A stretch of 64,000 nt of DNA from Neisseria cinerea (GTDB lineage Bacteria > Pseudomonadota > Gammaproteobacteria > Burkholderiales > Neisseriaceae), in the NCBI RefSeq assembly GCF_900475315.1, contig NZ_LS483369.1, forward strand, positions 992,001 through 1,056,000, read 5' to 3'. This document shows, piece after piece, positions 46,875-56,978 of the stretch. Below the pieces are notes generated by a model. The model made no database searches, was not told the DNA's origin, and worked only from the letters and a program-made list of their open reading frames with translations. Both the position numbers and the translations under genes were made by a program. The first letter of the stretch is position 1. Every line of letters starts with the position of its first letter.

Positions 46875-47021
46875 ACAGTATATTTCCGGAGGTATTTTCA
46901 GATTGCGTCTGCTAGACAGGTTGATTCAATTATACGGAAACAGATAGGATTAGATGATTATAGATACAAAACCACATGAACACCTTATCTGCTTTGACTG
47001 TGATTCACGGTACAGGATACG
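46875..47021. repeat. Diverged copy of the integrase-side end of the island (scar)
   Basis: This stretch aligns along its length with 56700-56859: both contain TATTT-CCG-AGGTATTTT-CAGAT, TCAATTA, the perfect GATTAGATGAT and then the 31-bp repeat at similar spacing. It lies outside the present element, so it looks like the remnant of an older related insertion. Confidence 0.6.
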
Positions 47022-47052
47022 ATAGACAAAAAAATAACCGCTCTAAAAGCGG
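47022..47052. repeat. Left direct repeat of the island (attL)
   Basis: Identical over 31 bases to 56860-56890. It contains the hairpin CCGCT-CTAAA-AGCGG and a seven-A run, which equals the tRNA-Leu terminator read on the minus strand. Confidence 0.88.
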
Positions 47053-47121
47053 CAGGGTCTCTCTCGAAATGAAAGCATATCATACTGATTTAAATATATT
47101 TTATTTTTAGGCAAATCAATA

Positions 47122-47146
47122 ATACCGTAAAAAATACCGTAAATTT
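47122..47146. repeat. Left copy of a 25-bp integrase arm-like repeat
   Basis: Identical over 25 bases to 56728-56752; both contain two TACCGTAAA units. They lie on opposite sides of the att core in the excised circle, as arm sites for a tyrosine integrase would. Confidence 0.7.
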
Positions 47147-47276
47147 GTCAAAGTCAAAATTTTTTAGGGGCGGTTTGTGGCATTTCTGCCAAGCTGTGAA
47201 ATATGGGCACATTGTAACATCGGCAATCATGCGCCGCCGCCCCGTATAAAAAAACAGTATATATATATAAAAATCA

Positions 47277-47375
47277 CTTGTTACCGTTGTTACTCTTGTT
47301 ACCGCTTCGCAATATTATGATTTTAATATTTCTTTTTGCGTTTTGCGGTAACAAGTCGGTAGCAACCGTAACAAC
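47277..47375. repeat. Left iteron cluster (origin-like)
   Basis: Direct units CTTGTTACCG at 47277-47286 and 47295-47304 with TTGTTAC at 47287 between them; then a roughly 40-base AT-rich spacer; then inverted units CGGTAACAAG (47346-47355), CGGTAGCAAC (47357) and CCGTAACAAC (47366-47375). Layout and motif match the right cluster at 55285-55398. Confidence 0.75.
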
Positions 47376-47458
47376 TCTTTCCCCGTTTTCCGCCTGTTTT
47401 TCGGCTTTTCCTATGCCGTGATAGCCTTTTTCTTTCGTTTTCCTGCTTTCCGATAGCG

Positions 47459-47482
47459 TAAAAAGCCGCCTTTCGGCGGCTC
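47459..47482 (-). terminator. Terminator of the helicase gene
   Basis: 7-bp stem AGCCGCC / GGCGGCT with a GAAA tetraloop on the minus strand, followed by a T-run; just past the helicase stop. Confidence 0.9.
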
Positions 47483-47488
47483 TCTGTA

Positions 47489-49245
47489 TCAATCAAGTTC
47501 CAGCGGCTCAATGATTAAATAATGGCGTATCGGCTTCTTGTTCACTTTGATTTGGTGCTGGTAGCCGTTTTTGGACGGCTTCAAGCGTCCTTTTTCCGAT
47601 AGTACCTTACACACGGTATGAATCGGGAACGATTGGGCGATTTCTTCTCTAAACACCAGCGGCAGGATGTAAAACTCGTCATTGCCGCCAACCTGCACTT
47701 TAAAGCCTGCATGCCCTTTGCCTTTACCTCCTGTCATGGTGTATGGCGCGTCTCTTTCGCTCCACGACAGGAAGCGCGGGGAATCGGCATATTGTGCGAT
47801 AAAGTCGTCCAACTGGCTGCATATCGCTTCTGCTTCGCGGTCTCCTGTGCCGTTCTCTTCCAGCCATTCGTGAAAGCACTGCATAACCCCCGCCCCGCCT
47901 GCCTTTAATCCTGTGATGGGCGCGGCATATTCTAAAACGGCGGCTAAAAGGGTAAAACGGCGGGCTATCCTCCGTGCCTGCCCTTCCATAGGCGGCAAGG
48001 CTTCAAGGTATCGGGCGCGTGTTGCTTCTATGGTTTCGGCGGCGGCTTCTTTGCCGTCTGAAAGGATTTGGCGGATAAGGGCGCGCCCTGCCGTGCCGTA
48101 TTTCTTGGCGGCTGCCCTGTTGATATGCTCCGACAGTTTCGCGCCGTCTGTGAAGCCGTGCAGCGTGTCGTATATGCCGTGTTTGGCTTCTGCCTGTATA
48201 TCGGGCAATCGGGCGCGGTTGCCTGCCTTCCATTGGGCGCGGTCTCCGATTAGGCTTTCGGGGTTGGTTTCGCCCGTTGAGAGTATCAAATTGCGCCATG
48301 TCTTTTGTTTGCGGTTGCCACCGTCTTTCGCGCCCTGTGTTTTCGATATGCCGTTAATCACGCTGTAAACCATTTGGGGGATTCTTCGCGGATCTGCGGT
48401 CTGTCCGATTTCGTCCAGTGCTAAAAAGCCGTCGTTACGCGCTAAGGCGGCATTCTGCAAACCTAATGCGGTAGTGTCCCAGTTGCTTTTTGTGGCTTCA
48501 TAGCTGCCCCATACGCTTAATGCAAGGTTGGCGGCTGTGGTTTTGCCTTTGGACGAACTGCCTGCCAAGTGTACGCCGCCGCCCTCTTCGTGCAGCAGTG
48601 CCAAGAACGGCGCGGCAAGGCTCAAACCCAATGCAAGGCATAAGCGGCTGTTGCCCTCTGCGTATCGGGCGGCTTCCTGCCGCCATTCTTCAAGGCTGCC
48701 CGATTCCGTATAGCCCTCCCTTTGGCTGGTGTCTCCGTTGTATAGATGTTTGCGCCCTCTGCGTTGATGGTTTCGCCATTGGGCAGGATATAGGCGTTGC
48801 CGTGCCAGCCTGCGCGGTCGGTAATGGTGTAAATATCGCCGCCGCCCTGTGTCTGCAAATAGTCGGAAAGCCGCTCACGCTTAACCTTGCCTGATAGGAT
48901 GTCTATACCGTACTGCCCCAATCTTGCCCAGCACTGCCCTGTTACGATTTCGCCTTTGGGGATGGCGGCGGTTTTGGTTCGCCGTGTGTTAGCGTCCTGC
49001 CAGCGTATCACGCGGTAATATGCGCCGTCGTTGTCCGTGCCCCTGCCTATGATGTCAATGGGGGATGACAGTTTTACCGGCGTGGCTTCCTGCATGTTGC
49101 CCTCCCTGTCGGTCTTAACGCCGATATACCACACGCCCGCGCCGTCCACGTCGTAACGCGGTTGTGCAAACGGCGCGGCAAATTCCGACATATCGCCCAA
49201 CGGGGCGGTTTCTTCTGCGAAATTCGGCTTTACATCTTTACACAT
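47489..49245 (-). pseudogene. DUF927 (P4 alpha-type) replicative helicase, broken by a frameshift
   Basis: Two overlapping frames together encode one DUF927 protein of about 585 aa. The upstream part starts MCKDVKPNFAEETAPLG (AGGAG 11 bases before) and holds the DUF927 core, ending with GGGDIYTITDRAGWHGNAYI and ILPNGETINAEG. It then runs out of frame near 48700-48750. The downstream frame continues the domain with GSLEEWRQEAARYAEGNSRL, which is encoded upstream of its first start codon. It then has Walker A AGSSSKGKTTAAN and Walker B FLALDEIGQ. One extra base in the AAAGGGAGGG stretch would fuse them. A sequencing error or programmed frameshift is the alternative. Confidence 0.8.
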
Positions 49246-49363
49246 AGTGTTAAAATCTCCTGTATGGGTTTGGTTGCCTTTCGCGGTTTTCCGCGTTTGG
49301 TTTCCGCTTGATAAATAATCCATTGCCGCCTACAAATGCCGCCTGTTTTTCAGACGGCATTTT

Positions 49364-50446
49364 TTACGCCTTGCCGCTGCGTTTGCGGTCGTTCAATTCG
49401 TCCAGCGCGTCATAGCCTGCCGTGCCGCTTATCCAGTATCGGACGGCTATCCCGCCGCTTTGGGCGCGTTTTGCCAGGCTTAATGCCGCCGTTTCCCCTA
49501 CGGGGCGCGGTGCGTCGTGGTCTGCGATAACGGCAAGCTCTTTAATGCCGTCTGAAAGCTCCAGCCGCTTCATGCCGTTTGCGCTTAGGGCGGCGCATAA
49601 GCCCCAATCATAGGCGTTGAACAGCTCACGCGCGGCTAAGGCGGTCTCTATGCCCTCCGATACCATCAGCCGCCCGTTTTCGGGGACGGGGAACAGATAA
49701 ACCGCCCCGCCCGTCATCGCGCCCTGTTTGCGGCTTCGCATTTTCTTGGCGGGCAATGCTTCGCCCGTTTGGGGATGGGTAATGCGCGCCTTCCGCCATA
49801 TCTGGGCGTGTATGCCGTCCTCTCCGTATGGTTTGGGATAGGCGGGCTCAATGTAGGTAATGTGCAAACCGCATAATCCGCCGCCGCGCGTGGAAGCTGC
49901 GATTGCCGCGTGGAAACGCCCGATGAACAGCGGTTTGCCGTCCTCCCCCTGCGTCCAGTATTCCATTGCCGCGTGATGGCGGATGTTTTCGGGAAGATAT
50001 GCCGCGTTTAAGCCGCGTGATTCCCAATACTGGACAACGGGGCAATCGGGCGTTAACGGCCCTGCTTCGTCCCATAATGCGGCAAGTTTGCCGATATGGT
50101 CTTTTTCGGGGCGTGGTTGAGGCTGTGGGCGCGTTGCCGGTATCGGTAAGGGGTTTGCCCCGTACATGCCTAAAATGCCCGAAACCTGCTTTAATGCCGT
50201 CTGAAAATCGCAACCTAGAAAGTGCATAACCAAGCCGAAACCGTCGCCTGCGCCGTTCTCCCAATGGGTGCAAATGAATGTGCCTTTGCCGTCTTTGTCG
50301 TCGTATCTGAAGCGGTCTTCGCCTCCACACGCGGGGCAGGGCTGGTGTTTGTTGCGTAAAAACTTAGGGCCTATGCCGATGGCGGCGTGTATCTCCTGCC
50401 AGCGGTAACGCGCGGCGGCTTTGATGTCTTGGTAAGTCGGTTTCAT
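49364..50446 (-). CDS. P4-type DNA primase (zinc ribbon + Toprim)
   Basis: A 360-aa primase of mobile elements. The start giving MKPTYQDIKAAARYRWQEI overlaps the stop of the 73-aa gene upstream (ATGA), so translation is probably coupled. The zinc ribbon is CPACGGEDRFRY with a later CTHWENGAGDGF, using DDKDGKGTFIC. The Toprim_3 core is RLMVSEGIETALAARELF (Glu) and ELAVIADHDAPRPVGETAA (Asp-x-Asp). With the DUF927 protein it would make the split version of the P4 alpha primase-helicase. Two uptake sequences lie inside the gene. Confidence 0.88.
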   Translation of the reverse strand: MKPTYQDIKAAARYRWQEIHAAIGIGPKFLRNKHQPCPACGGEDRFRYDDKDGKGTFICTHWENGAGDGFGLVMHFLGCDFQTALKQVSGILGMYGANPLPIPATRPQPQPRPEKDHIGKLAALWDEAGPLTPDCPVVQYWESRGLNAAYLPENIRHHAAMEYWTQGEDGKPLFIGRFHAAIAASTRGGGLCGLHITYIEPAYPKPYGEDGIHAQIWRKARITHPQTGEALPAKKMRSRKQGAMTGGAVYLFPVPENGRLMVSEGIETALAARELFNAYDWGLCAALSANGMKRLELSDGIKELAVIADHDAPRPVGETAALSLAKRAQSGGIAVRYWISGTAGYDALDELNDRKRSGKA

Positions 50447-50664
50447 TTTTCCGCCTCCTCCGATACAGGCTCTAACACAACACCAGCCATCGGGTCGGTC
50501 TCCCATATCGCGGGCGTTTGCGGCTGCGTCTCAACAGGGGGCGGAATATCCGCCGCGTGGTTTTCGGGGGCGTGGTGCGTCATGCCTGCAAAGGCAAAAC
50601 CGAAAATCAGGAAAACCGCCGCTCCTGCATATGACGTTTTGCGCGGTCTGTTGTCTTGTCTCAT
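50443..50664 (-). CDS. Small single-helix membrane protein, unknown
   Basis: A 73-aa protein. A basic N-terminus (MRQDNRPRKTS) is followed by one hydrophobic helix (YAGAAVFLIFGFAFAGM) and a Pro/Glu-rich tail. The ribosome site ACAGGAG is well placed. Its stop overlaps the primase start. It is not recognised. Confidence 0.7.
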   Translation of the reverse strand: MRQDNRPRKTSYAGAAVFLIFGFAFAGMTHHAPENHAADIPPPVETQPQTPAIWETDPMAGVVLEPVSEEAEK

Positions 50665-50819
50665 GGCTTTTTCTCCTGTGCCAATGTTTGGAATAAGCCT
50701 AAACCCGAACCTTCAAACATATATAAATCAATGTGTTATCTAAAACATAGGTTTGAGTCTGCCCCTGCTGCCTAAAAATAGGCGGCATGGCGGTTTAGGT
50801 TTTGATGGGTTTTAAAGGG

Positions 50820-51086
50820 TCAGACAGCGGGGACTACTTGATAGCTTGCCCATGCTTTAAAGTCGTCGCCCGCAATGGCGGCAATAAAGGACAGACAGGC
50901 GGAAACGGCGGCGGCGCGTGTGGGGTAAATCCCCAGACGGCGGGCGGTGCATGAATATGCGTCAGCGTCGTAATGGTAGGCGGTAGGCTCGTGAACGATG
51001 GCGCAATAGCTTTGCGCTTGTGTGTAAACGGCTTGAATGTTTTGAGTTTGGTTTGATGGTGCTGCTTGAGAAAAATCGCGTTGCAT
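50820..51086 (-). CDS. Small accessory protein, unknown
   Basis: An 88-aa protein with ribosome site TAGGAG nine bases before the ATG. It is tyrosine/alanine-rich (AYHYDADAYSCTARRLGIYP) with a compact helical end (AAAVSACLSFIAAIAGDDFK). No membrane segment is certain. It lies between the terminase small subunit and the 73-aa gene. It is not recognised; similar short ORFs are seen in Neisseria prophages. Confidence 0.65.
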   Translation of the reverse strand: MQRDFSQAAPSNQTQNIQAVYTQAQSYCAIVHEPTAYHYDADAYSCTARRLGIYPTRAAAVSACLSFIAAIAGDDFKAWASYQVVPAV

Positions 51087-51437
51087 TTGGAATGCTCCTA
51101 ACTGTTTGAGATTTGAGAATGCCCGAAAAGGGGGCGGTGCTCTCTCCTGCAGTTAGTCAGGCGTGGGCGTTGCCGCTACCACACACCGCCATAACTTGAT
51201 ATGCCGTCTGAAACCTTGAACAGACTGCAAACAACATAGGGGAAATGGCGATAAAAAAATCCCGCAAGCCGTGCGGAATTTCGGCTAACTGTATTTTAGA
51301 GAGAAACCGCAATCTAGTTTCTCAATCCCGATTTGTAAATACTTTTCAGACGGCATTTTTACAAGCCGCTGATTCCATTGCCTATTAAATAGCGTTATAC
51401 CGCGTTGCCGTGCCGTGCCGTGTCGGACGGTTTGGCT
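51087..51437. other. Gene-free stretch downstream of the terminase small subunit
   Basis: No gene found. It holds two uptake sequences (51203-51212; 51345-51354), the terminator at 51253-51278, and a second hairpin GAGAAAC / GTTTCTC (51301-51307, 51317-51323). Confidence 0.6.
51253..51278 (-). terminator. Terminator downstream of the terminase small subunit
   Basis: Stem CCGCA / TGCGG (51262-51266, 51272-51276), with seven A's on the plus strand giving a T-run on the minus strand. Confidence 0.72.
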
Positions 51438-51998
51438 TTAGATTTTGTCCAGTGCCGTAACAAGCAAAACGGCAAAATAAACCTTGTCAGGGTCTTTACC
51501 CGTAACGGCGGCTAAGTCTGCAAGGGTTACCGCGTCCCATTTGCCGCCATCCGTTTTAAGGGCTAAATCTAAGATTGCTTTCTTCTCTTCTTCTGTGAGT
51601 GAATCAACAATGGATTCAATACGGCTTTTCGGCTTTTCCTGTATTTCCGCCTCTGCCTTGATTTCCGCCTTATCCACCAGCAAGCCCAGCATTTTTGCCT
51701 TGCCCATCGTTGCCGATACCGCCGCGCTGCTTTGCGGCGTGGGGGCTGCCAGTGCTGCCGCCCGTGCCTGCTCCAGTTCGTGCAATAAGTCGTCCACCGT
51801 TACCCTGTGCCGTTGCCGCGCCTCTGCCTTGAGATCGTCCACCATCGCGGAAATATCAGGGGATTGAAGCAGCTTATAAGCCTCGTTCGTTACCGTTTCG
51901 GGCTTCATGTTTTCGGCGTTGTAGGCTTGGCGGTATGCTTCGCTTGCATTGCCCGTTTCTACATACAGGCGGGCGAAATGCTCTTGTTTCGGGGTCAT
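51438..51998 (-). CDS. Terminase small subunit-like protein (TerS)
   Basis: A 186-aa protein. The N-terminal Terminase_2-type helix-turn-helix reads MTPKQEHFARLYVETGNASE then AYRQAYNAENMKPETV, followed by AYKLLQSPDISAMVDDL, the usual layout of small subunits that recognise phage DNA for packaging. The middle is alanine-rich and probably oligomerises. The C-terminal 60 residues (SRIESIVDSLTEEEKKAILD) are acidic and helical. There is no large subunit next to it. It overlaps the HTH gene upstream by ATGA. In a satellite it could redirect a helper phage's packaging motor. Confidence 0.82.
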   Translation of the reverse strand: MTPKQEHFARLYVETGNASEAYRQAYNAENMKPETVTNEAYKLLQSPDISAMVDDLKAEARQRHRVTVDDLLHELEQARAAALAAPTPQSSAAVSATMGKAKMLGLLVDKAEIKAEAEIQEKPKSRIESIVDSLTEEEKKAILDLALKTDGGKWDAVTLADLAAVTGKDPDKVYFAVLLVTALDKI

Positions 51999-52249
51999 GC
52001 GTCATGCCTTTCCGACACCAGCGAAAACCGCCCGCGCTTCACGGTTTCGCCAAATTGGTTTTGGATTTCTTCCATTGTGGTAACGATGTTATGCCCCGCT
52101 TGGCGAAGCTCCATAATGCGCGTGTTGTAGCCAAGTATCCCCATTTGGGTAAGCTCCCATGATGTAACGCTGCCCTGCCTCAATCGGGCTAAAATGCGCT
52201 GTCTTTGATTTGGCGTTTTGGGCTTGTCGTTGGTACAATCATGCTTCAT
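51995..52249 (-). CDS. Small winged-helix (HTH) protein
   Basis: An 84-aa protein with NQRQRILARLRQGSVTSWEL followed by TQMGILGYNTRIMELRQAGH, a winged-helix pattern common in small phage regulators, ending with an acidic/basic tail. The ribosome site AAGGGGA is upstream. Its stop overlaps the TerS start (ATGA), so the two are translationally coupled. It probably helps control packaging or element genes; the function is not known. Confidence 0.8.
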   Translation of the reverse strand: MKHDCTNDKPKTPNQRQRILARLRQGSVTSWELTQMGILGYNTRIMELRQAGHNIVTTMEEIQNQFGETVKRGRFSLVSERHDA

Positions 52250-52311
52250 CGTTGGTTTCCCCTTTCCGCCGCCTAAATGTCCGTTTTGGCGGCTTTGTTT
52301 TGCCCGATAAA

Positions 52312-52527
52312 TTAACCCGCCTGCTCTTCGCGTTTGGCTGCCAGTTTGCCGATATAGTCGTCAATCTCACTGGAAAGCCAGCCTACGACGTTTGCGGATA
52401 CTTTGAACGGGCGCGGAAAATCGGGGCGGTGATGGCGGCTTTTAGTATTGCCCCAATTCCATACAGTAGAACGGCTCACGCCTAAACGCTCGGCTACCTG
52501 ATTAACACGCAATACTGATTGATTCAT
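52312..52527 (-). CDS. AlpA-family excisionase/regulator
   Basis: A 71-aa MerR-like DNA-binding protein of the AlpA family, which in P4-like islands activates or excises the element. The start giving MNQSVLRVNQVAERLGVSRS has AGGAG at good distance; a longer frame upstream (34 codons) is not supported. The helix-turn-helix LRVNQVAERLGVSRSTVWNW is followed by RPDFPRPFKVSANVVGW and the helix LSSEIDDYIGKLAAKR. It is the first gene of an AlpA-HTH-TerS operon, preceded by repeats that may be operators. Confidence 0.87.
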   Translation of the reverse strand: MNQSVLRVNQVAERLGVSRSTVWNWGNTKSRHHRPDFPRPFKVSANVVGWLSSEIDDYIGKLAAKREEQAG

Positions 52528-52596
52528 GCTTTCGCTCCTATTTGGTTGTGTTGGTACGGCGTGCATTATGGAAAATCCGCCTATTGCGTGATAGTC

Positions 52597-52704
52597 ATGA
52601 AAACGGTTTTTTTGCCTCCCTTTTTGCACAATGTGGAAAAGCCTTTTATTCCACGTTTTCGCATGATGTGAAAAATCTTTTTTTCGTTATGTTTTCGTAT
52701 CATG
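52597..52704. repeat. Imperfect tandem repeats upstream of alpA (possible operators)
   Basis: Units starting ATGTGGAAAAGC (52631) and ATGTGAAAAATC (52666), each ending with GTTTTCG-C/T-AT-ATG-type sequence (52653-52668 and 52689-52704 match at about 14 of 16). A weaker third unit begins near 52597. They cover the region where the alpA promoter must lie. Confidence 0.5.
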
Positions 52705-52733
52705 CAAAAACGCGCCCGAAATAGGCGCGTTTC
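52703..52733 (-). terminator. Terminator of the 244-aa gene
   Basis: Stem AACGCGCC / GGCGCGTT (plus-strand arms about 52709-52716 and 52724-52731), A's/T's on both sides. Confidence 0.82.
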
Positions 52734-52787
52734 TTTGTTTACTGCTTGCTGTTTCGGCGGTATATTCCGCCGCTAAAGTTGGTTGTT

Positions 52788-53522
52788 CTAATTTAGTGCC
52801 GTGTGTCTCGTCCTTTCTTCGATCGGGTGATTCACGCGGTTTTGTTTTTCTGCTTGGCATTGGTTAAGCCATTTGTCTATGTTCTGCCTTGCCTCTGGTT
52901 TTAAATACTTCCTGAATGTCTGTTTATCGGGGTAATCGTCCAAGCCTGCCAGCGGTTTCAATATGTCGTATAGCCTTATCTGCCAGCTTATTTTATAGGC
53001 GGTTATGTCGATATTTAAAAAATATCGGGTAATCTGATAAATCCGCCTGATTAATGTTTGTGCTTTACCGCTTCGCCCGTGTGTGGGATAGCAGTAAAAA
53101 TATTCCAGTCTGTTCTGCTCCTCCTCTATGCTCTTGTCTGCCATCTCCTGCCATCGTTGCTCATCTTCTTCACTTAAAAATCCCTGTCGTAACCTGATCC
53201 CCTGTTTCTCCGTCTGCCAGCCCTTTTTATACCGCCCGATTACCTTTTTTGCCGTTTCGCTGACTCGTGCAGTGTTTAGAGCCGCCCTAATTAGAGATAA
53301 GGCACAATCCTTTACTTTTTCATGTAGTATGCCCTCAATGTCGAAATGCGCGGTTAGCTCCATTAAATGTTTAATTAGCTGCTCAATCATATTTTGGCGC
53401 ACTTCTTCAAGCCCTCCATCACGCCCCACCACCTTTAACGGCTGTTTGTATTCAAAACTTTCTTCAAAACTTCCAAAGCTACCAACCCCTTCAAAAAGGG
53501 ATAACAATGAAACGTTTTTCAT
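52788..53522 (-). CDS. 244-aa accessory protein of unknown function
   Basis: A soluble, mostly helical protein with no membrane segment and no motif recognised. The N-terminus (MKNVSLLSLFEGVGSFGSFE) is followed by a long charged helical region with several His/Asp (HLMELTAHFDIEGILHEKVK). The middle is rich in Arg/Lys and Glu, the later part aromatic (RRIYQITRYFLNIDITAYKI) and the C-terminus basic. The ribosome site TAGGAAA is upstream. It has its own terminator, so it is an independent unit between AlpA and the small ORF. Its position is one where phage-interference genes are often carried, but no function is claimed. Confidence 0.72.
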   Translation of the reverse strand: MKNVSLLSLFEGVGSFGSFEESFEYKQPLKVVGRDGGLEEVRQNMIEQLIKHLMELTAHFDIEGILHEKVKDCALSLIRAALNTARVSETAKKVIGRYKKGWQTEKQGIRLRQGFLSEEDEQRWQEMADKSIEEEQNRLEYFYCYPTHGRSGKAQTLIRRIYQITRYFLNIDITAYKISWQIRLYDILKPLAGLDDYPDKQTFRKYLKPEARQNIDKWLNQCQAEKQNRVNHPIEERTRHTALN

Positions 53523-53869
53523 GCGTATGTATTTCCTAAATTACAATAGATTGAACCGCAATAATGCGGCTTAGGTATTGTATTAAAAGATTTTAGTTTT
53601 CTCTACTCTTGACAATGCCGTATTTTGTACTTTTTAAACAGCCAGCAGCTTATACGGTTTTATACACTGAGAAGCTAATTATTAATGCGGTCAATAATTT
53701 TGTATAACGCGCGTTTTTCCCTCCCTTTTATGGACTTGCAAAAACTGCCGTATGGCTTTCACGCGCGCGCGTATTGGTCCGAAAATTACCCGCCCCGCCT
53801 TTCTTTGTCGGTCATGGAAGAAATAGGGCATGATTGTGCCGTAAGCGCGTTTTAGCTGGTGTATGTGTG
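53523..53869. other. Gene-free stretch upstream of the 244-aa gene
   Basis: AT-rich upstream part (53560-53720, likely promoter of the 244-aa gene) and a GC-alternating stretch with ACGCGCGCGCG near 53760. A 46-codon basic ORF (53691-53831, minus) has no ribosome site and is not called. Confidence 0.5.
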
Positions 53870-53899
53870 AAAAATCCCCGTGCCTATCGGTTATACGGG
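53870..53899 (-). terminator. Terminator overlapping the end of the 27-aa ORF
   Basis: Stem ATCCCCGT / ACGGGGAT with the ORF stop codon inside the loop region; minus strand is followed by TTTTT. Confidence 0.8.
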
Positions 53900-53974
53900 G
53901 ATGTTTTCGGCGGCTTTCGTGCCTATTTGCGCCGCGCCTTTCATATTGGCGATTTCTGCGTATAACTTCGTCAT
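53891..53974 (-). CDS. 27-aa micro-protein ORF
   Basis: ATG at 53974, preceded by an excellent ribosome site (ACAGGAGT, six bases before). The peptide starts MTKLYAEIANMKGAAQIG and ends AAENIPV. It has a clear intrinsic terminator at its end, so it looks like a genuine small transcription unit. It has no membrane segment. It is not recognised. Confidence 0.55.
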   Translation of the reverse strand: MTKLYAEIANMKGAAQIGTKAAENIPV

Positions 53975-54011
53975 TGGTTTACTCCTGTCTGTATAAATGG
54001 CATATTGAAGA

Positions 54012-54080
54012 AAACCTGCGAAGACGCTTAGGGCATAGGAGGACGGAATCGAAAGATTGACAGTCGCTCGTCGCAGGTTT
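54012..54080. repeat. Long hairpin element 1
   Basis: Arms AAACCTGCGA (54012-54021) and TCGCAGGTTT (54071-54080) are a perfect 10-bp inverted repeat around 49 bases containing AGGGCATAGGAGGACGGA. T-rich sequence (GCTGTTTTTC) follows on the plus strand. Confidence 0.6.
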
Positions 54081-54125
54081 GCTGTTTTTCTTTACACGCC
54101 CAAATAAAAACCTTAGAATCGAATT

Positions 54126-54195
54126 AACGGTATTTGTTGAACGCTATGAGGGACCGGACAATTTTGTCAGGGAGGCATAGCAGACAAATACCGTT
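54126..54195. repeat. Long hairpin element 2 (nested stems)
   Basis: Arms AACGGTATTTGT (54126-54137) and ACAAATACCGTT (54184-54195) are a perfect 12-bp inverted repeat. Inside lie GCTATG / CATAGC and a GACA-ATTT-TGTC tip, with G-rich bulges. T's follow on the plus strand. Confidence 0.65.
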
Positions 54196-54272
54196 TTTCA
54201 TTTGCGCTCAAATCCGTGATCATAGTAGCGTCTGCTGCCGTCCTTGTTATCCATTCGTTGAGGCTGGTATTT

Positions 54273-54695
54273 TTAGACGGTCTCAAACGGGTTTATCAAT
54301 TTCACGCCGCTATGATCAAAGTCTTTGATATTTCGCGTTGCCAAAGTTAAACCGTGCTGCTTGGCTGTTGCCGCTATCCAGGCGTCGTTTTCGGGACTTT
54401 TGTCGGGTATGTGCAAACGGGCGCATATTTCGGCGGTGGTTTCGTCTATGGGCAATATGCGGTCTTTGAATGTGGGCTTTACAACTTCTTCCAGCCAGCG
54501 GCGCAATATTCCGCCCTGCTGTCCGTCTTTGCGCTCCATACCCAAAACGCCCCGTTCAAGTTCCATCATGACAATTGCGCTGGTGTACATTTCAGCTGGG
54601 TCAATGGTGTTTAGCCATGCTCTAACGTTGCCGTCTGCCCGATTTGCCCGGCGTGTTTCACTGATAACGTTGGTATCCAACAGATACATTTTCAA
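54273..54695 (-). CDS. PIN-domain toxin (VapC/FitB-like)
   Basis: A ribonuclease toxin of about 140 aa. PIN-domain acids are seen at the N-terminus (YLLDTNVIS), in MMELERGVLGMER (Glu), in SPENDAWIAATAKQHG (Asp) and in LATRNIKDFDH (Asp). That is a complete active site. The start overlaps the antitoxin stop by four bases (ATGA). The start could be MKMYLL (54695) or MYLL two codons later. VapC toxins usually cut tRNA or rRNA; the target here is unknown. Confidence 0.9.
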   Translation of the reverse strand: MKMYLLDTNVISETRRANRADGNVRAWLNTIDPAEMYTSAIVMMELERGVLGMERKDGQQGGILRRWLEEVVKPTFKDRILPIDETTAEICARLHIPDKSPENDAWIAATAKQHGLTLATRNIKDFDHSGVKLINPFETV

Positions 54696-54967
54696 TCCTC
54701 CCCAAAATCAACGGGCGGTCTTTGCGCGGTGCTTCGCGGCGGTATTTCAAAATCGATGCTTTCCAGTTTGGCGGCAAGCTCGGCGTTTGCCGTCAGTGCC
54801 TCCAGTGCGCTTTGCGGCTTGCCTGTCAGTTTGCGGTATTCCGCATAACTGATTAATACATGGCTCGGCTTGCCGCGTGTGGTAATAAATACGGGGGACT
54901 TTGCGGCTTTCTTTTGGGTTTGGCTTGGGTATTGGTTAAATTCCCTGCTGCTGACAGTGTTTAACAT
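54692..54967 (-). CDS. Phd/YefM-type antitoxin
   Basis: A 91-aa antitoxin. The N-terminus MLNTVSSREFNQYPSQTQKK is the DNA-binding Phd/YefM pattern, with SPVFITTRGKPSHVLISYAEY in the middle and a flexible toxin-binding C-terminus (SIDFEIPPRSTAQRPPVDF). An excellent ribosome site (AAGGAGGGC) precedes the ATG. It is translationally coupled to the PIN toxin and probably represses its own promoter. Confidence 0.9.
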   Translation of the reverse strand: MLNTVSSREFNQYPSQTQKKAAKSPVFITTRGKPSHVLISYAEYRKLTGKPQSALEALTANAELAAKLESIDFEIPPRSTAQRPPVDFGED

Positions 54968-55284
54968 TACGCCCTCCTTGTGTCTTGTTTGTAGTTATGT
55001 AGCCTCTTTTTACGCGGTTGTGCCTGTCGTGTCAATGTGCATTGCCCTTGTGGCTGTGTTGCCTTCTGAAACACCAGCGGTTAATCTGCCTGTTTTTTAA
55101 TCAATCGCTTCCAATGGCTCAAATTTGCGTTTTTAGCGTATTTTGCCGTCTGCCTATGTCGTGATATATCCAAGCGGTTTAACTGCCATTCCTGCTCAAA
55201 TTTGGCGCATTTCCGTGCGTTTTGGCTTTTTATTCCTCTACGCTCCCACTGCCAAGACAGGGAAAAAGCCGAAAATACGGGGCA

Positions 55285-55398
55285 GTTGTTACCACTTGTT
55301 ACGATTTGCTACCGCACTTGTTACCGATTTTTTGTCTTTTTCTTATTTTATTTCATATACTTATTTATCTAACTTTTTCTCGGTAACAACGTAACAAC
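55285..55398. repeat. Right iteron cluster (origin-like)
   Basis: Four direct units GTTGTTACCA (55285), CTTGTTACGA (55295), TTTGCTACCG (55305) and CTTGTTACCG (55317-55326), then a 54-base T-rich spacer, then inverted units CGGTAACAAC (55381-55390) and CGTAACAAC (55390-55398). The rest of the gap 54968-55284 holds no gene. Confidence 0.78.
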
Positions 55399-55438
55399 TA
55401 AGGGTATGGTATTCCTATATAGGGATTTTCAGAAAACC

Positions 55439-55469
55439 AAAAAAAAACCGTCCTGCATTTTGGGCGGTC
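55439..55469 (-). terminator. Terminator of the integrase gene
   Basis: Stem ACCGTCC / GGGCGGT (one G-T pair), with seven A's on the plus strand giving a T-run on the minus strand. Confidence 0.7.
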
Positions 55470-55481
55470 TCCCCTCATTCC

Positions 55482-56696
55482 CTACAGCTTGGCAGCATCT
55501 CCCGCAAGCTCTTTTTCCGCTTGGCGGTATCGCTCCCGCAAAAAATCACTATACCATTGCATAAGCTCTTTACGCTGTGGGATATATTCCGTTCTGTGGT
55601 ATGCCGCCCTGACTTTGTTTTGTTCCACATGGGCAAGCTGTCGCTCTATCACATCGCTGTCAAAGCCGTTCTCATTCAAAACATCTGTAGCTAGGCTTCT
55701 AAAGCCGTGCGGTGTTGCTATGCCCTTGTAGCCCATTCTGCCCATTAAGTAAGACAGGGTGTTTTCACTCATGTGCTTGTCAGGATCTTTTACCGATGGG
55801 AATAAATAGCGGCTATGCCCTGTTATTTCCTTTAGTTCTGCCAAAAGCTCAAGCGTCCAATCAGCAAGGGGGACGATATGCGGGGCTTTCATCTTCATCT
55901 TGGCGGCAGGTATGCTCCATTCTGCCCCGTTTAAATCAAATTCCACCCATTCCGCCGCCCTAAGCTCTCCATTCCTGACAAAAGTCAGCATGATCAACTG
56001 CATGGCTATTTTTGTTTGCCGTTCGGCTTGTTCCAACATCAAACGGCGGTAAAACTCGGTCAGCTCGGATTGTGGTAATGCAGGCTGGTGTTTCTGCTTT
56101 GGTGCTTTAATTAAACCTACCAAAGGGACGGCGGGATTATTCTCTGCCCGCTCCGTCCGTATGGCATAAGTGAAAACAGCCTTGATACGCTGCAATATCC
56201 GCCCTGCCGTTTCAAGTGCTCCTCTTGCCGCTACCGCTTCAATCACTTCTTTTACTTGGCTGACTTTGATTTCACTGACAGGCAAACCGCCAAGCATGGG
56301 GAAAACGTCCTTTTCTAAACTATCCCATACACGGGCGGCATGATTGCCCGTCAATCCTGTTTCACGGTGTTTATGCCATTCGGCGGCAATGCTCCGAAAT
56401 GTGTTACTGACAGCGGCTTGCCGTTCACGCTTTTCCTGCTGCTTGGCTTCGCCGGGATCTTGCCCCGCTGCAAGCAAGCGGCGGGCATTTTCAGCGGTTT
56501 GGCGGGCTTCCACCAGTGATACGGTCGGATATTTGCCGATTGAAAGCGTTTTACGTTTGCCGTTATGCGAAAAGTCAAACCGCCATAACTTCCCGCCGCT
56601 CGTATTGACATACAGATACAAACCTTTGCCATCATTCAGCTTATACGGTTTTTCGGCGGGCTTGGCGTTTTTGATTTGTCGGTCGTTCAGCTTCAT
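55482..56696 (-). CDS. Tyrosine integrase, P4 type (DUF4102 N-terminus)
   Basis: Site-specific recombinase that inserts and excises the island; 404 aa. The N-terminal DUF4102 arm-binding domain starts MKLNDRQIKNAKPAEKPYKL and includes GKGLYLYVNTSGGKLWRFDF. A SAM-like core-binding domain follows. Catalytic residues fit: Arg in FVRNGELRAAEW, His-x-x-Arg in TPHGFRSLATDVL and the tyrosine in AAYHRTEYIPQRKELM. Repeats with TACGGTATTTT stand just upstream of its start and may be arm sites or its own operator. It reads away from tRNA-Leu and is next to attR. Confidence 0.94.
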   Translation of the reverse strand: MKLNDRQIKNAKPAEKPYKLNDGKGLYLYVNTSGGKLWRFDFSHNGKRKTLSIGKYPTVSLVEARQTAENARRLLAAGQDPGEAKQQEKRERQAAVSNTFRSIAAEWHKHRETGLTGNHAARVWDSLEKDVFPMLGGLPVSEIKVSQVKEVIEAVAARGALETAGRILQRIKAVFTYAIRTERAENNPAVPLVGLIKAPKQKHQPALPQSELTEFYRRLMLEQAERQTKIAMQLIMLTFVRNGELRAAEWVEFDLNGAEWSIPAAKMKMKAPHIVPLADWTLELLAELKEITGHSRYLFPSVKDPDKHMSENTLSYLMGRMGYKGIATPHGFRSLATDVLNENGFDSDVIERQLAHVEQNKVRAAYHRTEYIPQRKELMQWYSDFLRERYRQAEKELAGDAAKL

Positions 56697-56727
56697 TTTT
56701 ACGGTATTTTTCCGAGGTATTTTTCAG

Positions 56728-56752
56728 ATACCGTAAAAAATACCGTAAATTT
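56728..56752. repeat. Right copy of the 25-bp integrase arm-like repeat
   Basis: Identical to 47122-47146; contains two TACCGTAAA units. An inverted unit TACGGTATTTTT lies at about 56700-56711, overlapping the integrase start region. Confidence 0.7.
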
Positions 56753-56859
56753 TAGGTTAACTCAATTAGAACATATTAGACGGGATTAGATGATACGCAG
56801 GCACTAAACCAGCGGAAAGCCTTGTCTTTCCTGGCTTTGGTTTACGGCGTTGGACTGCA

Positions 56860-56890
56860 ATAGACAAAAAAATAACCGCTCTAAAAGCGG
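56860..56890. repeat. Right direct repeat of the island (attR), also tRNA-Leu terminator
   Basis: 31 bases identical to 47022-47052. It lies four bases past the 3' end of tRNA-Leu; on the minus strand it reads ACCGCTTTTAGAGCGGT followed by TTTTTTT, an intrinsic terminator. Confidence 0.88.
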
Positions 56891-56893
56891 TTG

Positions 56894-56978
56894 TGGTGCC
56901 CAGGGTCGGACTCGAACCGACACACCTTGCGGCGGGGGATTTTGAGTCCCCTGCGTCTACCAATTTCGCCACCTGGGC
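56894..56978 (-). tRNA. tRNA-Leu (anticodon CAA)
   Basis: 85 bases with encoded CCA and a long variable arm (CGCCGCAAGGTGT type). The anticodon loop CTCAAAA gives CAA. Its downstream terminator is the island's integration site. Confidence 0.97.

Follow-up and report, generated by a model that had tools for sequence, protein, structure and literature searches.

What kind of element occupies the interval between ilvB and tRNA-Leu(CAA) in the chromosome of Neisseria cinerea (contig NZ_LS483369.1; 1,832,904 bp, single contig)? We analyzed a window of 64,000 nucleotides of this chromosome (positions 992,001 to 1,056,000) and count all coordinates from its first letter. The interval holds an island that spans ~9.84 kb between repeats, and its genes follow one another in the order integrase, Phd/PIN, ORF244, AlpA, helix-turn-helix (HTH) protein, terminase small subunit (TerS), small open reading frames (ORFs), primase and DUF927. 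In our view it is likely a phage satellite, and one of the Gram-negative phage-inducible chromosomal island (PICI) kind. This reading is based on attachment-site (att)-like repeats at tRNA-Leu, an integrase, AlpA, replication genes, a TerS gene with no other virion gene beside it, and relatives throughout the genus. To describe its content we scanned 12 island ORFs, ten with Pfam and PHROGs and the PIN and Phd ORFs with Pfam only:

55482..56696, minus strand: tyrosine integrase, 404 aa (phrog_1, 2e-69; Arm-DNA-bind_3, 8.9e-28; Phage_integrase, 8.7e-19)
54692..54967, minus strand: Phd/YefM antitoxin (Pfam)
54273..54695, minus strand: PIN-domain toxin (Pfam)
52788..53522, minus strand: ORF244, a 244-aa cargo protein without a family in the Pfam and PHROGs scans, with a 47% relative in an N. 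bergeri island
52312..52629, minus strand: AlpA regulator (PF05930, 1.4e-9)
51995..52249, minus strand: HTH_39 winged-helix protein (Pfam)
51438..51998, minus strand: TerS, 186 aa (Terminase_2, 1e-14; phrog_51, 3e-22)
50820..51086, minus strand: ORF88, without a family in profile scans, with relatives within the satellite family
50443..50664, minus strand: ORF73, a small protein with a tail motif conserved in 16/34 loci
49364..50506, minus strand: primase with zinc ribbon and Toprim domains (Zn_Ribbon_Prim, 8e-14; Toprim_3, 5e-10)
48622..49323, minus strand: N-terminal piece of the DUF927 gene, before a frameshift (Pfam DUF927; 1.3e-28 and 2.2e-12 over the two ORFs)
47489..48631, minus strand: C-terminal piece of the DUF927 gene, after the frameshift (Pfam DUF927)

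The integrase combines arm-binding, core and catalytic domains. TerS is the sole head or packaging gene, and no large terminase subunit (TerL), portal, capsid or tail gene is found among the 12 scanned ORFs (overlapping antisense ORFs lay outside the scan). An earlier sequence-only reading of this locus had named the integrase at a tRNA, AlpA, the primase, DUF927 and TerS, and the profile scans recovered every one of these parts. It had also described the single gene direction and the lack of large terminase, portal, capsid and tail genes, both of which hold; its toxin-antitoxin pair is Phd plus PIN, its 244-aa ORF indeed has no family, and the identity of TerS, which it had set beforehand as a test, is borne out by the two profile matches. 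The HTH of AlpA matches TerS families at chance level only (E 0.02 or worse), and the primase has no match among solved structures at E 0.1. In N. polysaccharea a single open frame of 551 aa encodes DUF927, but in the window the gene is spread over two frames. With this frameshift the window copy of the island can probably not replicate on its own, provided that the shift is real and no sequencing error.

ORF73 is a small hydrophobic protein encoded directly before the primase, and its tail is of the type DPMAGVVLEP in the window and 15 other family loci and in 0/4 prophage stretches; it is possibly the micro-ORF mentioned in the sequence-only reading. Ten proteins encoded between integrase and AlpA in this and related islands, ORF244 included, gave a best PADLOC E of 0.0048, which leaves a defense role for this cargo unsupported. 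By megablast, island DNA had no match in a phage collection; in a plasmid collection the matches, over 4% and confined to the flanks, were to two gonococcal records that are labelled as plasmids at 2.17 Mb.

Gram-negative PICIs are described as carrying ordered integrase, replication and regulator genes, occupying prophage-free att sites, lacking structural and lytic genes, and typically spanning 12-15 kb (PMC6092414). The island has its integrase, replication module (broken in the window copy) and master regulator in conserved order. With two portal families as queries (47 matches), none of 99 tRNA-Leu(CAA) or (TAG) sites, many of them on short contigs, has a portal within 30 kb downstream, and the nearest two downstream portals are 30.7 and 57.5 kb away. 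Phage structural or lytic genes are absent from the 12 scanned ORFs, and tblastn with the proteins of two prophages found none in ten islands. The island resembles EcCICFT073 and PmCI172, which have an integrase, AlpA, a replication module and, in some Gram-negative PICIs, a TerS homologue (PMC6092414), and differs from them in carrying primase and DUF927 as separate genes and a TerS with a satellite-specific, exchangeable C-terminus. In EcCICFT073, AlpA acts as an activator, and transfer depends on it (PMC6092414). As in those Staphylococcus aureus pathogenicity islands (SaPIs) that have TerS, a satellite-coded TerS would steer the packaging machinery of the helper toward satellite DNA, while the regulator is AlpA here and Stl in SaPIs (PMC6092414). 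With P4-like satellites the island shares an arm-binding integrase at a tRNA, AlpA and a zinc-ribbon primase. Unlike them, it has a TerS and, in the Pfam and PHROG scans of the 12 ORFs, no Psu, Ogr/Delta or Sid family, which we take to be the markers of that group; nor does it carry its own capsid, portal and large terminase, presumably the markers of capsid-forming PICIs. The label P4-like, which the sequence-only reading had used beside PICI, suits the integrase, but not the island as a whole, which is PICI-like.

Ends of the island and its target site

The features that delimit the island are:

56894..56978, minus strand: tRNA-Leu(CAA), the integration target
56860..56890, minus strand: tRNA-side copy of an exact 31-bp repeat, the terminator behind the tRNA
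47022..47052, minus strand: far copy of the 31-bp repeat
47053..47069, minus strand: degenerate copy of the tRNA 3' end (13/16 bases) adjoining the far repeat copy, probable far att core
46918..47021, minus strand: degenerate copy of the integrase-side attP arm, outside the island (alignment to the island)
56728..56752, no strand assigned: 25-bp repeat at the integrase end, possible arm site for integrase or AlpA
47122..47146, no strand assigned: far-end copy of that 25-bp repeat, also a possible arm site

The 31-bp repeat is exact, as the sequence-only reading had it, but is probably not the att core: the unoccupied site L167 (L and G numbers designate loci and genomes of our comparison set) has the identical 31 bases behind its tRNA-Leu(CAA), which identifies the repeat as the tRNA terminator. 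The core is probably the tRNA 3' end. In an exact-match test on ten islands, 16-18 tRNA bases recur at the far end in L018, L019, L021 and L023, the terminator region recurs in the window and L024, and L022 and L026 have other short matches; no far-end tRNA match was found in L025 and in L020, where the contig ends. In L018 the far tRNA bases run into sequence equal to the post-tRNA flank of the empty sites L206 and L213. The far-end tRNA copies together with this flank point to the tRNA 3' end as the core and to an element that itself supplies the tRNA end and the terminator.

The region 46918-47021 just outside the island aligns to the window island at 71.5% over 137 bp and to a decayed element in G007 at 73% over 138 bp, the 31-bp repeat included, and is probably the scar of an earlier element integrated at the same tRNA. 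An empty site, which the sequence-only reading had proposed to look for, is present in the gonococcus: both flanks are collinear, and 426 bp separate the aligned blocks there versus 10,142 bp here.

Relatives in the genus and the mosaic TerS

TerS is present in 11/46 Neisseria genomes. Ten of these 11 (the window and 9/45 others, among them N. bergeri, N. weixii, N. polysaccharea, N. sicca and Neisseria sp. HMSC077D05) carry islands with integrase, AlpA, TerS and primase, in each case with the integrase beside tRNA-Leu(CAA) or (TAG). DUF927 follows the primase in 7/9 relatives; L025 has none, and in L020 the contig ends before it, with a 99% identical copy on another contig of the same genome. 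In tblastn with the proteins of two Neisseria prophage stretches (TerS set aside), none that we count as structural had a match in the ten islands or in 78 tRNA-Leu loci, 20 of which hold an integrase or satellite gene and 58 neither (two of those under 501 bp). The possibility raised with the sequence-only reading, that relatives at this locus might carry capsid and tail genes, is thus answered by nine other genomes with the same order and no matching prophage structural protein.

The eleventh TerS is a prophage gene in G010 with a TerL gene next to it. It is the nearest phage-borne TerS in the genus, sharing 54/111 residues with the island TerS. Its locus (L027, G010:C1 about 1,488,500-1,490,400) contains this TerS followed by a Terminase_6N TerL, relatives of which occur in 1/46 genomes.

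Comparison of TerS among the islands reveals a mosaic protein. Between the window and the N. polysaccharea island, 112/113 residues are identical at positions 1-113 and 17/67 at positions 114-186, and the DNA similarity of these islands ends near TerS residue 118 and returns behind the gene. In the less related G036 island, 108/113 N-terminal and 58/73 C-terminal residues are identical to those of the window. Against 50,697 phage records, TerS has 177 matches, none covering 80% of it, and the best 25 of the 177 cover residues 1-106; the C-terminal part alone finds nothing significant in these records (four matches at E = 0.6). The TerS of Bordetella phages IFTN1-7 and of ES18 resembles residues 1-106 at 61-66%, and these proteins, like the G010 TerS, are phage genes without the satellite C-terminal part. 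By these comparisons TerS is phage-like in residues 1-113 and satellite-specific in the rest. Among solved structures its profile fits best to Pam5 TerS (E = 0.0037, positions 3-114), a match that we count as weak because an MntR chain scores almost equally (0.0047). In lambda and P22 the C-terminal region of TerS binds TerL (PMC9611059), and for this reason the exchanged part may be the helper-docking, TerL-facing half.

Two candidate genes did not withstand closer examination. An 86-aa ORF in the prophage stretch of the N. cinerea genome matched two TerS-less islands and might have been a shared packaging gene, but it begins with TTG, overlaps the start of TerS and has no recognizable function. 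The other, a frame of 148 aa located outside that prophage, matched seven tRNA loci and is repeat-like.

Further genes recur around these sites. An AAA ATPase cargo gene is found within or close to islands and integrase remnants at tRNA-Leu (L020 12325-13407, L024 6478-7605, L026, L175, L215, L217, L245), with PF13173 at 1e-6 in two scanned copies and weak matches in defense libraries. Possible satellites outside the Neisseriaceae are suggested by TerS relatives with an integrase nearby in L048 (Cricetibacter) and in L063 and L064 (Alkanindiges), where by eye no TerL follows TerS; L063 also has AlpA and L064 DUF927.

One chassis with several cassettes

The chassis extends beyond the TerS-bearing islands. 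DUF927 relatives occur in 28/46 Neisseria and 35/83 Neisseriaceae genomes. Counting 38 DUF927 matches as 35 genes (three are split), merging the second N. polysaccharea contig into L020 and adding the DUF927-less L025, we arrive at about 36 Neisseria elements with the integrase-AlpA-primase-DUF927 chassis, one of them a remnant (L214). In 32/36 the integrase immediately follows a tRNA or tmRNA gene (tRNA-Leu with anticodons CAA, TAG or GAG, Met, Phe, Arg, tmRNA); the remaining four (L252, L254, L268, G033) have contig ends, no integrase match or a locus outside the fetched set. Judged from gene content, the family is common in Neisseria. The sequence-only reading had supposed that such a satellite could be new to the genus, and no description of a phage satellite in Neisseria was found in the literature searched (a large 2023 satellite survey fell outside that scope). 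Neisseria does not appear in the main text of PMC6092414.

We define the cassette as the genes between AlpA/HTH and primase; the labels are our own:

10/36: Terminase_2 TerS
4/36: Mu-type Gam, Mor, short head maturation protease and coiled-coil protein (L209, L255, L257, L262)
3/36: Gam and/or Mor without protease (L256 both; L259 Mor, the sole ORF scanned; L261 Gam, with a presumed Mor without family)
7/36: KilA-N
1/36: Sf6-type TerS (L264, 5.5e-43)
1/36: DUF1804 (L263, 6.5e-42)
8/36: no recognized gene (part of the ORFs scanned)
2/36: cassette not visible (L252, G033)

The Mu-type protease matches phrog_976 at 2e-23 to 3e-28, covering only about positions 21-173 of 415, and the coiled-coil proteins have scaffold-like matches, all below the cut-off. 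These cassettes lie at L209 2386-4423, L255 7324-9496 (minus strand), L257 7587-9729 (minus strand) and L262 9415-11412. PmCI172, which has a Mu-like helper and so provides a precedent, carries a capsid homologue (PMC6092414), whereas no capsid gene is found among the ORFs scanned in the four Mu-type islands. A Mu-parasitizing branch is possible.

For mapping the labels we used a tree of the 28 DUF927 proteins that remained after four short or broken rows had been removed; the window is represented by its C-terminal piece, on a long branch. The TerS label requires 6 changes, at least 5 of them forced by well-supported branches, about as many as shuffling gives on average (6.3). For the nine labels taken together the tree requires 14 changes against an average of 18.0 upon shuffling, a value as low being reached in 0/200 shuffles, and the labels overall are therefore not random on the tree. 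One label group, P184, forms a single clade, and every other label is scattered over the chassis. We rejected P184 as a proper cassette, as a related frame also occurs in the TerS-bearing L024 and in the KilA-N-bearing L253 and L254. L263 and L264, from the same genome, have nearly the same DUF927 protein, yet the former carries DUF1804 and the latter the Sf6-type TerS.

Because the C-terminal half of TerS, and in other members everything at the TerS place, is swapped as one block, we tentatively propose, at just short of an even chance, a satellite family whose chassis at tRNA or tmRNA genes stays the same while a short cassette is traded to suit a new helper: a TerS with an exchangeable C-terminus for pac-type phages, and Gam-Mor-protease-coiled-coil, with no capsid gene, for Mu-like phages.

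Helper phages and competing explanations

If the island is a satellite, a helper phage would switch on AlpA, and the integrase would excise a circle of about 9.84 kb, to be replicated by the primase and the DUF927 protein. The N-terminal half of the satellite TerS would mark satellite DNA and its C-terminal half would load this DNA onto the helper's TerL, so that helper heads would be filled with satellite DNA. Exchange of the TerS C-terminal half, or of the cassette at the TerS place, would let members of the family pass from one helper to another.

The N. cinerea genome itself contains a prophage (G000:C1 about 490,300-529,400; L028-L030) with integrase, TerS, TerL, portal, major head and tape-measure genes, whose primase region resembles the island primase (40% over 96 residues). 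As a helper it is unsupported: its TerS belongs to phrog_641 and its TerL to phrog_9, and tblastn of the island TerS against the prophage stretches of this genome gave no match at 1e-4. A matching large terminase, which the sequence-only reading had proposed to look for, was not found in this genome. A Mu-like helper for the protease cassette was also considered; a Mu portal is present in G041, G001 and G011 and not in G039 (3/4), but 22/46 genomes have one overall, which makes the association too weak. For the gonococcal prophage NgoPhi1, a TerS resembling that of Sf6 and, behind tRNA-Ser, an integrase of the P4 type are reported (PMC1931599), and we conjecture that a phage of this kind could serve L264.

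Several points weigh against the satellite reading. Genes are broken in relatives (integrase and DUF927 in L019, HTH_39 in L018, primase in L026), as is DUF927 in the window; the islands of N. sicca and N. weixii have uninterrupted frames. At 9.84 kb the island falls below the size typical of Gram-negative PICIs (PMC6092414), where 'typically' sets no strict bound. No helper was identified, the only prophage found in the island's own genome having another TerS type, and no packaging site was located. Moreover, the tail of P22 TerS also takes part in DNA binding (PMC9611059), and the variable C-terminal part of the island TerS could recognize DNA and not TerL.

A prophage that had lost its morphogenesis genes might leave behind a TerS and a primase that look phage-like, as these do, and a broken DUF927 gene; remnants in which the integrase is followed by chromosome do exist at these tRNAs (e.g. 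L169, L215). Such decay would hardly be expected to retain one compact order, free of structural genes, in ten species-level genomes, nor to place Mu-type, Sf6-type and Terminase_2 packaging genes on one chassis. Within 30 kb of the 35 DUF927 genes the two portal families have a single match, in G020, where a fragment of 150 bp lies at a distance of 24.4 kb. Since same-order relatives without structural genes were found, a deleted prophage appears unlikely, and we give this explanation very little chance. Alternatively, the locus might be a plain integrative island, spread by natural transformation or by conjugative or generalized transfer, that keeps TerS for another use such as blocking phage packaging. 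Neisseria take up DNA naturally, a sequence recurs in the island whose core, GCCGTCTGAA, we take to be that of the Neisseria uptake sequence, and toxin-antitoxin cargo would suit such an island. Replication genes of its own and a TerS whose DNA-binding half is conserved across ten genomes suggest packaging instead, and to the plain island we assign a small chance.

A different interpretation concerns TerS alone, namely that its C-terminal difference reflects fast drift or changed pac recognition and not an exchanged helper-docking part. We place this somewhat below even. In its favor, the C-terminal moiety is the most variable region of TerS according to a review, which also reports the DNA binding of the P22 tail (PMC9611059). 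The break in similarity near residue 118, with its return behind the gene, and the C-terminal type shared with the less related G036 argue for exchange rather than drift, and leave docking and DNA recognition undistinguished.

For a satellite with an exchanged TerS half, these nearly identical natural islands, which differ mainly in their presumed helper-facing part, would make natural TerS/TerL pairs comparable and bear on the open question of what lets a satellite acquire a helper or switch to another. If the swap reading is true, one could tell from its sequence which helper a satellite is specific for. And if the elements interfere with their helpers as other PICIs do, they may shape the traffic of phages and islands among commensal and pathogenic Neisseria.

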